DNA of 64,000 bases from Parvibaculum indicum (GTDB lineage Bacteria; Pseudomonadota; Alphaproteobacteria; Parvibaculales; Parvibaculaceae), in NCBI RefSeq assembly GCF_011762095.1, contig NZ_JAASQO010000005.1:1-64000 (forward strand), in the 5' to 3' direction. Below the pieces are notes generated by a model. It was not told the origin of the DNA, did not search any database, and saw only the letters and a list, made by a program, of their open reading frames with translations. Positions 43,744 to 49,131 of the stretch are shown here, piece by piece; within the stretch, counting starts at the first letter, position 1, and each line of letters starts with the position of its first letter. Made by a program: the position numbers and the translations under genes.

Positions 43744-44484
43744 CTAGTCGTCCACCCGCATATCCGGTTCGGCGACAGCCAGAATGCGGCCGAGGCCGGG
43801 CTCTTGCAGCAACACGACGCAGCGTGCGTCCTTGTCCGGCATGACGTCTTCTCCAGGCAGCATGATGCGCATCTTTCGTCCGTCCCACATGCCGATTGGG
43901 GCGATACCGCGCACGACATTGGCATAGGTAATCGTCTCGCCCCGGTTTTCGCCGCGTTCGATCCCGACCGTTTCCGATTTCGCATAGCGGACAAGCCAGA
44001 TGACGGCCGGTTTTTCCGGCGCGGGCCCGGCGGCAATCGACACGGTGAGGCGGCCTTCCTCTTTCTTGAGCGACATGGAGACGCTATTGGCGGCGGGCTT
44101 GCGCGCAGCGATCAGGGCGTCGATCTCGCGACGGTTGCTGCCGATGCCTTCGGCGGCGCCGTCCACCACCATTTGTGGCGTATAGACGCCGGAGAGGCCA
44201 AGGGCGCGGCCATAGGCCCGCTGGCGGGCGGTGTTGTCGGGGCTCGCCAGCGTGTCGCGCCAGCCGAGATAGTCCCAGTAATCGACATTGAAGGAGAGCG
44301 GCAGGACGTCTTCCCGGCGCGTAAGATCGCGCAGATAGGCGTCGGCGGGCGGGCAGCTCGAACAGCCCTGACTGGTGAAGAGTTCGACAATGACGGGGCG
44401 CGTCTGCGTATCGGCGGCGACGGCGGCCGGGGCCACGATCCCGGCGGCAAGGGCGAGTGCAATATGGAAGAGCGGCTTTCTCAT
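43744..44484 (-). CDS. DUF1223 family exported thioredoxin-like protein
   Basis: 246 residues, signal peptide ending at AVAAD. The mature N-terminus [19 protein letters not shown] carries a CSSC redox-like motif on a thioredoxin fold, the DUF1223 (PF06764) signature. A periplasmic thiol role is plausible but unproven. It converges with the DUF4340 gene after 3 bases. Confidence 0.93.
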
Positions 44485-44573
44485 GAGCGCAGCATAGGCG
44501 GCGCGCCGGACACGAACGAGTCACGATGCGGTGAAGCTGCGGTGAGGGCCGGAAGCAGCGAGAAGCCCAAGAA

Positions 44574-44601
44574 AAAGGGCGGTTCCGAAGAACCGCCCTT
44601 T
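44574..44601 (-). terminator. Rho-independent terminator of the aconitase gene
   Basis: AAAGGGCGGTTC (44574-44585) pairs with GAACCGCCCTTT (44590-44601), loop CGAA. On the minus strand the stem is followed by TTTTTCTT. Confidence 0.9.
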
Positions 44602-44682
44602 CGCGTTTCGTATGGCGCTTTCGCTTATGTCCACTCGTCGCGGTTCCGGACGGCGAACCGGAACCACTTCGCCTGGAACCGC

Positions 44683-47600
44683 TTATGCGGCGAGGTTGCG
44701 CAGCACGTAGCGCAGGATGCCGCCATGCGTGTAGTAGTCGAGCTCGTCCTGCGTATCGATGCGGGCGAGCGCGTCGATCACCTTCTTGGTGCCGTCGGCG
44801 AAGGTGATGGTGACCTTGACCGTGTCACGCGGCTTCAGCGTTTCCAGACCGTCGATGCTGACCGTCTCCGACCCGTCGAGGCCCAGCGATTCCCAGCTCT
44901 CGTCGTTCAGGAACTGGAGCGGGGCAACGCCCATGCCAACCAGGTTGGAGCGATGGATACGCTCGAAGCTCTGGGCGATCACGGCCTTCACGCCGAGGAG
45001 CACGGTGCCCTTGGCCGCCCAGTCGCGGCTGGAGCCGGTGCCGTATTCCTTGCCGGCGAAGATCACCAGCGGGGTGCCGCGGCGCTTGTACTCCATCGCG
45101 GCATCGTAGATCGGCATCTGGGTGCCTTCGGGCTGCAGCTTGGTGTAGCCGCCCTCGATCCCCTTCAGCATCTGGTTCTTGATGCGGATATTGGCGAAGG
45201 TGCCGCGCATCATGACCTGATGGTTGCCGCGGCGGGCGCCGTAGGAGTTGAAGTCCTGCTGGCCGACCTGCTTGGAAATCAGGTACTCGCCGGCGGGGCT
45301 TTGCAGCTTGATGGAGCCGGCGGGCGAGATGTGGTCCGTCGTGATCGAGTCGCCGAAGAGACCCAGCACACGCGCATCGTCCACATTTTCCAGCTTGCCC
45401 GGCTTCTTCGTCATGTTCTCGAAGTAGGGCGGGTTCTGGACATAGGTGGAGTTGTCGTCCCAGCTATAGGTGTTGCCGCCGGTGACCTTGATGCTCTGCC
45501 ATTTGTCGTCGCCATCGAAGACGTTGGCGTAGCGCGAGCGGAACATTTCCGGCGTGACGCAGGCATGAACGATCTCGGCGATCTCCTTGGAGGACGGCCA
45601 GATGTCCTTCAGATAGACCGGTTGACCGTTAGAACCTATTCCGATGGGTTCAGTCGTCAGGTTCTTGCGGGTGGAACCGGCCAGCGCATAGGCGACGACG
45701 AGCGGGGGCGAAGCGAGGTAGTTCGTCTTCACATCCTGGCTCACGCGACCTTCGAAGTTGCGGTTACCCGACAGGACCGACGAGACGACCATGTCGTTCT
45801 TGTTGATCGCCTGGCTGATTTCCGTCTGCAGTGGGCCGGAGTTGCCGATACAGGTGGTACAGCCGTAACCGACCAGGTTGAAGCCCATCGCGTCGAGGTC
45901 TTTCTGCAGGCCCGACTTGGTGAGGTAGTCGGTCACGACCTGCGAGCCGGGGGCGAGAGAGGTTTTCACCCAGGGCTTCACCTTCAGGCCGAGCTTATGA
46001 GCGTTGCGGGCGACGAGGCCGGCCGCGACGAGCACGTTCGGGTTGGAGGTGTTGGTGCAGGAGGTGATGGCGGCGATCATCACATCGCCATGGCCGATGT
46101 CGTAATCCTCGCCTTCGACGGGGACGCGCTTGTCGGCTTCCGACGCCTTGCCGAATTCACCCGTCAGGGCGTTTTCGAAATTGTCTTTCACCTTCGACAG
46201 GCCGACACGGTCCTGCGGACGCTTGGGACCGGCCAGGCTCGGCTCGACGGAAGAAAGGTCCAGTTCCAGCGTATCGGTGAAGACCGGCTCTTCCATGTTC
46301 GGCTCGTGGAACATGCCCTGCGCCTTGAGATAGGTCTCGACCAGCGCGACGCGCTCCTCGGAGCGGCCCGTGGCCTTGAGGTATTTCAGGGTCTCGTTGT
46401 CGACCGGGAAAAAGCCGCAGGTCGCGCCATATTCGGGAGCCATGTTGGAGATGGTCGCCCGGTCGGCGAGGGAAAGGTGCTGCAGGCCGTCGCCGTAGAA
46501 TTCAACGAACTTGCCGACCACGCCCTTCTTGCGGAGCATTTCGGTAACGGTGAGCACCATGTCGGTCGCCGTGATGCCCTCGGCGAGTTCGCCGGTGAGC
46601 TTGAAGCCGATGACTTCCGGAATGAGCATCGAGACCGGCTGGCCGAGCATGGCCGCTTCGGCTTCGATGCCGCCCACGCCCCAGCCGAGAACCGACAGGC
46701 CGTTCACCATGGTGGTGTGGCTGTCGGTGCCGACGCAGGTGTCGGGATAGGCGACTTCCGTGCGGCCTTCCTTCTTGGTCCAGACCGTCTGGGCCAGATA
46801 TTCGAGGTTCACCTGGTGGCAGATGCCGGTTCCGGGCGGCACGACGCGGAAATTATCGAAGGCCTTGGAACCCCAGCGCAGGAACTCATAGCGTTCGCGG
46901 TTACGCTGATACTCGATTTCCGTGTTCTGTTCGAAGGCGAGCGGGGTGCCGAACTTGTCCACCATCACGGAGTGGTCGATGACGAGGTCCACCGGCACCT
47001 GCGGGTTGATCTTGCTCGTCGAGGCGCCGAGCGTCTTCACGGCGTCGCGCATGGCGGCGAGGTCCACCACGGCGGGAACGCCGGTGAAGTCCTGCATCAG
47101 CACACGCGCCGGACGATAGGCGATTTCGCGGGTGGAGGTGCGGTTCACCATCCATTCCTTCACCGCGCGAATGTCGTCGGCGGTGACGGTGCGTCCATCT
47201 TCATGGCGCAGCAGGTTTTCCAGCAGCACCTTCAGCGAGAGAGGCAGACGCTCGATACCGTCGAGACCGGCCTTCGCCGCGTCGGGCAGGCTGTAATAGG
47301 TATAGGTGCGCCGTCCGACCTTCAGCGTCTTCCTGGCGCCGAAGCTGCCGCCGGTCTTGGTCGCGGCCTTCTTGGCGGGAGCCTTGCGGGCGGCAGGTTT
47401 GGCCGCCGGCTTGCGGGCAGGCGTCGCCTTGCGGGCGGGCGCCGTCTTCGCAGCAGGCTTGCGCGCCGTCGCGGTTTTCTTCGCAGGGGCTGCCTTTCCG
47501 GCCGTCGTCGCCTTCCTGGCAGGCGCGGCCTTGCGGGTCGCGGCGGTCTTTTTGGGCGCCGCTTTCTTCGCTACCGGCTTTTTCGCGGCGGGTTTCTTCG

Positions 47601-48084
47601 CTGTCGCGGTCTTGCGGGTCGCGGTTGCCTTTTTCGGGGCGGCTTTCCGGGCGGCGGGCTTTTTTGCCGCCGTTTTCTTCGCAGGCGCCTTTTTCGCGGT
47701 CGTCTTGGGTGCCGCTTTCTTCGCTACCGGTTTTTTGGCGGCGGTCGTTTTCTTTGCCGTGGTGGCCTTTTTGGTGGCCGCGGTCTTTTTCGGCGCGGTC
47801 TTGCGGGCTACCGGCTTTTTGGTGGCGGTCGCCTTTTTTGCGGCGGGTTTGGCCGTCGTCGTCTTCTTCGCAGCGGGCTTCTTGGCAGCCGGTTTCCGGG
47901 TGGCGGCCGTCTTCTTGGGCGCGGCCTTCTTGGCTACGGCCTTTTTCGCAGGCGCCTTTTTCGCGGGGGCCTTCTTTGCCGCGGTCTTCTTAGCGGTGGC
48001 GGTTTTCGCCGCCGCTTTCTTCTTTGCTACGGGCTTCTTTGCGGGGGCCTTTTTACTGGCCTTCGCCACTGCCTTTTTCGCCAT
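44683..48084 (-). CDS. acnA: aconitate hydratase with long histone-H1-like N-terminal extension
   Basis: 1133 residues. Residues 1-246 are almost entirely Lys, Ala, Pro, Thr and Arg in AAKK/PAKK/TARK repeats, as in bacterial H1-like proteins and AlgP tails. Residues 247-1133 are a complete AcnA (citrate to isocitrate, TCA cycle): [4Fe-4S] ligands in SCTNTSNPN and [10 protein letters not shown], plus VCPDT-like VGTDSHTT and [11 protein letters not shown]. There is no stop or alternative ATG between the parts, so one fused protein is predicted. GAGGA lies 8 bases before ATG 48084; the in-frame extension to 48243 is not supported. Typical AcnA is about 890-900 residues, so the extension is additional. 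A nucleic-acid or polyanion-binding role is inference. Confidence 0.93.
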
Positions 48085-48318
48085 CAGTTCGATCCTCGAT
48101 GCTGCTTGCCGGGCCCGGAAATGCGATGCGATACGATGTGGCGCGATGCGTGTTACGCACGCCTCCAACGCCGCTGTCGATCCGCCGCCGATCTGTCGTT
48201 GCGGGCCGCTGTTCGTGACGCGGCGGACTATAATGACTTTCATCGGCTAATGCCATGCTTCGCACGCGGTCTTGAGCCATGATAATGAGCATCACGGAAC
48301 AGTTCAGGGGAGGTGGCG

Positions 48319-49131
48319 ATGGAAGCGGTGAGAACGGAGAAAAACGGCGCCGTCACGACGATCGTGCTCAGCCGGCCGGAGGTGAAGAACGCGGTGGATC
48401 GCGAAACCGCCGATGCACTGGCGCAGGCCTTTCTCGATTTCGAGCGCGACGAGGACGCGCTGGTCGGTGTGTTTCATGGCGAGAACGGAACCTTCTGCGC
48501 CGGGGCCGACCTGAAAGCGGTGTCCAGGGGCGGGGAAGGCGGCGCCAATCGCATGACGTCGCCCGGGACCGGTCTCGAAGCGGACAGGCTCGCCGCGGAC
48601 GGCCCGATGGGGCCCTCGCGCATGGTCCTTTCCAAGCCCGTTATCGCGGCGATTTCCGGTTATGCGGTGGCGGGCGGCATGGAGCTCGCCTTGTGGTGCG
48701 ACATGCGCGTCATGGAACGGGATGCCACGATGGGGGTATTCTGCCGGCGCTGGGGCGTGCCGCTGATCGATGGGGGCACGGTCCGCCTGCCACGGCTCAT
48801 CGGCCATTCGCGGGCGATGGATCTCATTCTCACCGGCCGGCCGGTCGATGCGGAGGAAGCGTTGCAAATGGGTCTTGCCAACCGGATCGCGGAACCGGGG
48901 ACGGCGCGGGAAACCGCCGAAGAGCTGGCGCAGCAGATCGCACGGTTTCCGCAAGGCTGTCTCCGGCACGACCGGATGTCGGCCTATGAGCAATGGGATT
49001 TGCCCTACGATCAGGCGCTCGCAAACGAGTTCACACATGGCCGGAAGGTGCTCGCCTCCGGTGAAACGGTTGCCGGCGCGACGCGCTTTGCCGGCGGCAA
49101 GGGACGGGGCGGGAATTTTGACGATATTTGA
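48319..49131 (+). CDS. crotonase/enoyl-CoA hydratase family protein
   Basis: 270 residues. Oxyanion blocks [11 protein letters not shown] and [15 protein letters not shown] match the crotonase fold; [24 protein letters not shown] is a frequent pattern in short EchA-type proteins. GGGGAGG 5 bases upstream decides ATG 48319 over the GTG at 48313. Acyl-CoA substrate unknown. Transcribed divergently from acnA and only 7 bases before ccmA, so it may lead the ccm transcript. Confidence 0.92.

Follow-up and report, generated by a model that had tools for sequence, protein, structure and literature searches.

A histone H1-like N-terminal arm on the AcnA-type aconitase of Parvibaculum indicum and its relatives

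Introduction

Aconitases of several organisms have second roles involving nucleic acids, which are hard to separate from catalysis. The mitochondrial aconitase of yeast, Aco1, belongs to a different aconitase family from AcnA. PhaF of Pseudomonas is, like PhaM of Ralstonia, a Lys/Pro-motif protein that links a metabolic body to the nucleoid. In Ralstonia, PHB granules are kept on the nucleoid by PhaM (PMC3556143), an attachment attributed to the Pro and Lys residues of a PAKKA motif (PMC11352279). The available text on yeast describes an aconitase associating with the mtDNA nucleoids of mitochondria, and mentions no histone-like arm on it (PMC6124551). The PHB granules of Herbaspirillum yielded both AcnA and a protein with an HC2 domain; the authors remark that AcnA could stick to the granules non-specifically (PMC3783465).

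Parvibaculum indicum has an AcnA/IRP1-type aconitase (TIGR01341; PDB 2b3x, 3snp) with a full-length core and the three cluster cysteines, but with 246 extra residues ahead of that core. This extension, or arm, shares with HC2 and the bacterial histone H1-like proteins (PF07382) a Lys/Ala-rich, low-complexity composition and a Pfam score above the cut-off. It differs from them in being fused to an enzyme and in falling below the NCBIfam cut-offs, and the likeness is known from composition, not from descent. PhaM and PhaF are granule-associated adaptors, whereas here the arm belongs to a TCA-cycle enzyme. The enzyme and the type of tail are each known; no aconitase with a histone-like arm is reported among the listed matches in the open-licence PMC literature, and the combination is new as far as those matches show. 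A nucleic acid-type arm has been added to what is apparently the sole aconitase, has been kept through the order, and has a counterpart that arose independently elsewhere. The case may illustrate the recruitment of histone-like tails for positioning an enzyme of metabolism.

Results and Discussion

Gene structure and start site

The window (the whole stretch of DNA analysed, 64,000 nt) carries the armed acnA gene on the minus strand at 44683-48084, where an unbroken reading frame encodes 1133 residues. The arm (residues 1-246) is encoded at 47347-48084 and the AcnA core (residues 247-1133) at 44683-47346, both on the minus strand. Two neighbours lie outside the fusion: downstream, a DUF1223 protein (43744-44484, minus strand; Pfam PF06764) and, divergently oriented, a member of the enoyl-CoA hydratase family (48313-49131, plus strand; Pfam PF00378).

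The ATG at 48084 is taken as the start because the start sites and Shine-Dalgarno sequences of relatives match that place. The putative ribosome-binding region (48085-48106, minus strand) contains GAGGA, the last base of which is eight bases upstream of the ATG. The motif [G/A]AGGA is found shortly upstream of the ATG in all 30 armed acnA genes that were measured, the start being set in each gene at the first MA[K/R] of its open frame, which makes the shared start a matter of construction. Another in-frame ATG, at 48243, gives a longer frame; it was rejected as the start, since the common start of the relatives and their Shine-Dalgarno sequences correspond to 48084. From the start to ten codons past the junction, the sole further ATG, GTG or TTG in frame is a GTG at codon 6. 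This means that the AcnA core has no usual start codon of its own, and a separate AcnA start was discarded. The arms of relatives contain some GTG codons, and some genes also have one in the core stretch LKVG, at a position that is not common to all. The original prediction had described one uninterrupted frame, joining a histone H1-like extension without internal Met, and hence without a separate start, to an intact, complete AcnA; all of these features are confirmed here and in the two sections that follow, the histone likeness as one of composition.

Opposite acnA and a neighbouring gene there is also an open frame of 1492 residues (43804-48282, plus strand). It has the appearance of a read-through shadow, cast by GC-rich DNA coding for Lys and Ala, and not of a gene.

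The AcnA core

By the sequence tests that were run, the fused protein is AcnA. The core scores 1410.7 bits with the equivalog model TIGR01341 (cut-off 945), is matched by both Pfam Aconitase and Aconitase_C, and aligns with human IRP1 (2b3x) over residues 278 to 1132 (E 4.4e-291). It contains the motifs SCTNT (at 675) and GCTTCIGN (at 741). C676, C742 and C745 are invariant across 29 aligned sequences, and we take them, from the roles known in IRP1 and AcnA, to be the three Fe-S cluster cysteines.

In the genome that includes the window (G000), the AcnB model finds no match, and the other two PF00330 matches score as LeuC. Within the reach of these models, the armed protein must therefore carry the TCA step, and it looks like the only recognisable aconitase of this genome. 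Ten of the eleven genomes of Parvibaculum's family (designated f1) that were searched, G000 included, are likewise without an AcnB match. The remaining one, G030, has an AcnB-type aconitase (G030:C29:5064-5744).

Composition and predicted disorder of the arm

Counted to the first core residue, the arm in the window is 248 aa long. It consists of 31% K, 35% A, 14% T, 10% P and 4% R, has no D or E and no internal Met, and carries a net charge of about +87. Across 30 measured arms, length ranges from 150 to 280 aa and Lys content from 30 to 45%; every one of them has no more than one acidic residue and a net charge between +58 and +112. One of these relatives (L008, genome G014), which appears to be the type strain P. 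lavamentivorans DS-1, has an arm of 210 residues. This strain is culturable and would make an arm-deletion test possible.

The whole protein scores 61.4 bits with Pfam HC2 (PF07382; curated cut-off 40), with the best stretch at residues 58-195, a match that may be purely compositional. The arm alone stays below the cut-offs of two NCBIfam models, HC2 (52.9 vs 135 bits) and the Burkholderia H1-like protein (57.7 vs 80 bits), and for this reason it is called H1-like here and not a member of HC2. In an AlphaFold model computed from a 29-sequence alignment (mean pLDDT 63.6, pTM 0.62), residues 1-245 have a pLDDT below 50 with no secondary structure assigned, as expected of a disordered region, while the core is predicted with moderate confidence apart from some poor stretches.

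Conservation in the family of Parvibaculum

A search at the level of the order returned 40 genomes, all belonging to f1, whose members are environmental bacteria. Five of them (G003, G012, G020, G021 and G034) have no readable 5' end of acnA, leaving 35 that can be assessed. The arm is present in 34 of the 35, and in 32 it is uninterrupted and starts with MA[K/R]; the arm of G027 begins with MAP, while that of G790 is broken in its 5' part, in an assembly that contains ambiguous bases. Among the 13 best loci from Parvibaculum and other Parvibaculaceae (L040-L052), all have the arm. The exception is G031, a genome labelled f1 with an armless AcnA whose core is 69% identical to the query, compared with 75-79% for its genus mate G027. 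Given this lower identity, the gene possibly comes from a stray contig in the bin, which is 68% complete. The armed acnA of G027 (L189, G027:C4 near 171.9 kb) has a change of frame inside the core, due either to sequencing error or to decay.

Relatives also settle whether the fusion might be an artefact, with two genes, one H1-like and the other acnA, run together over an overlooked stop codon or frameshift. A free H1-like gene does exist elsewhere in the genome, but the same unbroken fusion recurs in the 32 genomes noted above, the Shine-Dalgarno sequence keeps its position in each of the 30 genes measured, and no gap run between aligned arms departs from a multiple of three. We give an assembly artefact practically no credence; the relatives already refute it. 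Conservation of the arm in related genera, the check proposed with the original prediction, is thus clearly positive. The prediction is supported in part: the binding of nucleic acid or polyphosphate and the localising or regulatory role that it considered for the arm are possibilities (see below), and it did not extend to the presence of the arm throughout the order, to the separate gain in f93 or to Lys/Ala tails on other proteins. The accompanying view that ordinary AcnA proteins are without such an arm also stands: a Lys/Ala arm is found in none of the 67 named loci L053-L119, one of which (L080) is cut 10 residues upstream.

Selection on the arm

Nine pairs of arms were compared at the DNA level. 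One is free of gaps, and in each of the other eight all gap runs are multiples of three. Substitutions are most frequent at the 3rd codon position in all nine. The dN/dS ratio of the arm (NG86) is 0.06-0.24 in all 14 pairs for which it was computed. This range is biased downward, because dN comes out too low when repeats are aligned with the protein as a guide; the value for L015/L016, the pair without gaps, is 0.20. For the core, the ratio is 0.03-0.14 in the ten pairs that offered 651 or more core codons, and 0 to 0.18 in the remaining four, where it is based on 78-80 core codons only. In one pair (L011/L013), arm and core have the same value (0.14). By these comparisons of coding DNA, the arm is under purifying selection as a protein. 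Its repeats and length turn over fast, with close species differing, for example, by 248 vs 276 aa when their cores are 98% identical, while charge and composition are kept.

Arms outside the family and their origins

Searches of the class and of the phylum matched 290 of 385 and 293 of 398 genomes, respectively, with the best matches listed. From these, 5' ends were read for 68 (30 loci and 38 regions) in the class search and for 20 in the phylum search; regions were chosen mainly for long open frames, so that arms elsewhere, short ones above all, may be missed. Five loci outside f1 (L029-L033) have no long arm, and one of them (L029, family f18) has a short K-rich start. A further 25 unnamed loci (L125-L149) include two long arms, both from f93, another alphaproteobacterial family, and six short ones of 16-32 residues from f121 and f18. 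Among 39 additional regions outside f1 there is a long arm in L152 (f93) and a short one of 42 residues in L151 (f18), so that the short versions in f18 and f121 span 16-42 residues. Within the 20 regions of the phylum search, one gave no match (L198) and none of the other 19 has an arm. As candidate arms, the long open frames that precede acnA in other families were also considered; they are mostly GC-rich read-through and not Lys-rich.

Family f93 has an acnA match in 15 of 18 genomes. The 5' end is readable in 14, and 11 of these have a Lys-rich arm, the armless ones being L222, L225 and L228. Among ten armed f93 genes measured, eight arms are 75-132 aa long, counted from a shared Val that is a GTG codon in L143 and L145; the arm of L224 is 40 aa, and L216 is without the shared Val, its length being counted over the whole open stretch.

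A tree of 77 core sequences was made without L028, which is partial, and without the incomplete f1 genes, those of G027 and G031 among them. Its 24 f1 sequences form one clade (SH-aLRT 99). Presence of an arm requires at least five changes on this tree, and at least three for arms labelled long, the 40-residue arm of L224 being among those so labelled. Placing f1 and the armed f93 sequences in one clade is rejected (AU test, p 0.000128), which indicates at least two origins and discounts a single common origin of all arms; judged by the core tree, the f93 arm is a separate gain from that of f1. A clade of f1, f18 and f121 is not rejected (p 0.088), so the short arms of the latter two families and the f1 arm may be related by descent.

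Possible function of the arm

The best explanation, to which we assign a probability of about one half, is that a disordered, electrostatic arm tethers AcnA to the nucleoid or to another polyanion. One polypeptide combines a strongly cationic, histone tail-like arm, predicted to be disordered, with an AcnA that appears to have all of its catalytic parts. The arm would bind polyanions without sequence specificity, nucleoid DNA first (or RNA near the nucleoid), and once bound would hold this TCA-cycle enzyme on the nucleoid. As to the purpose, one may speculate that an Fe-S enzyme is placed with its partners, or that its level or redox state influences DNA packing. With a charge cloud of about +60 to +110, no particular sequence is required, in keeping with the turnover of repeats and length while charge is retained. 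The retention of the arm in evolution suggests attachment of the enzyme to DNA or to some other negatively charged component of the cell. Composition, the HC2 match, predicted disorder, low dN/dS, the separate gain in f93, the apparent status as sole aconitase and the precedents described above all point towards a tether. The Herbaspirillum finding is suggestive, as counterparts of the two fused parts occur there side by side (PMC3783465). Counting against a tether are the armless gene of G031, the possibly compositional HC2 score, the scores below both NCBIfam cut-offs, the chance of non-specific sticking that the Herbaspirillum authors raise for AcnA, and the downward bias of dN/dS, although one of the pairs is free of gaps. 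A bolder form of the proposal is that the main aconitase in Parvibaculum's order is a nucleoid-associated protein, coating or bridging the chromosome by means of a histone-like tail and coupling metabolism to DNA packing or expression, and that this evolved at least twice in the Alphaproteobacteria. It is offered tentatively, as something that we would not expect to hold.

An arm without any particular target, only mildly useful or nearly neutral, has a real though minor chance of being the right account. In GC-rich genomes, DNA coding for Lys/Ala repeats is prone to expand; such repeats are tolerated at the ends of proteins and help with solubility or expression. The differences in arm length and repeats between close species agree with such an origin, as do the free H1-like gene and the comparable tails of UvrA and trigger factor (see below). 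Neutral expansion, however, should leave many short, broken or lost arms, whereas the arm is kept in nearly all f1 genomes that can be assessed, its substitutions are mostly synonymous, acidic residues are nearly excluded, and f93 acquired its arm separately. The target may also be other than DNA: polyphosphate, PHB granules, ribosomes and RNA, the anionic membrane, or a cluster or condensate of TCA-cycle enzymes. Polycations generally bind polyanions, the Herbaspirillum proteins come from PHB granules, and the genome paper of strain DS-1 predicts PHB storage (PMC3368416); granule preparations, on the other hand, may carry nucleoid contaminants, and we regard this alternative as unlikely. The arm may also bear on the RNA binding of AcnA that has lost its cluster: mycobacterial AcnA in that state binds an mRNA element (PMC7527780), and the core aligns with human IRP1. 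That the arm strengthens this iron-sensing state, making a broad-affinity regulator from a moonlighting enzyme, is nevertheless distinctly improbable, since the arm is permanently charged and loss of the cluster is not needed for it to act.

Lys/Ala tails on other proteins

The tether proposal is further weakened by the occurrence of Lys/Ala tails elsewhere, which makes the aconitase arm less special. The window genome has a free H1-like, Lys/Ala-rich protein of about 258 aa (L035, G000:C1:288997-289746), which scores 100.6 with NCBIfam HC2 (cut-off 135) and 78.8 with the Burkholderia H1-like model (cut-off 80). In three other f1 loci, a gene of similar type adjoins a putative gene that we take to be gatB. 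UvrA, as we presume the protein at L251 to be, ends in a Lys/Ala-rich tail in one f1 genome (one locus examined). Trigger factor, recognised with the Trigger_C model, was read in seven f1 genomes; six copies end in a Lys/Ala tail, that of the window genome being the one without. With such tails on trigger factor and UvrA, the aconitase arm may reflect a general habit and not a function specific to aconitase. The C-termini of f1 trigger factors (L258-L264) carry His/Asp-rich stretches, Lys/Ala tails or both, and that of the window genome (L259) has the His/Asp stretch only.
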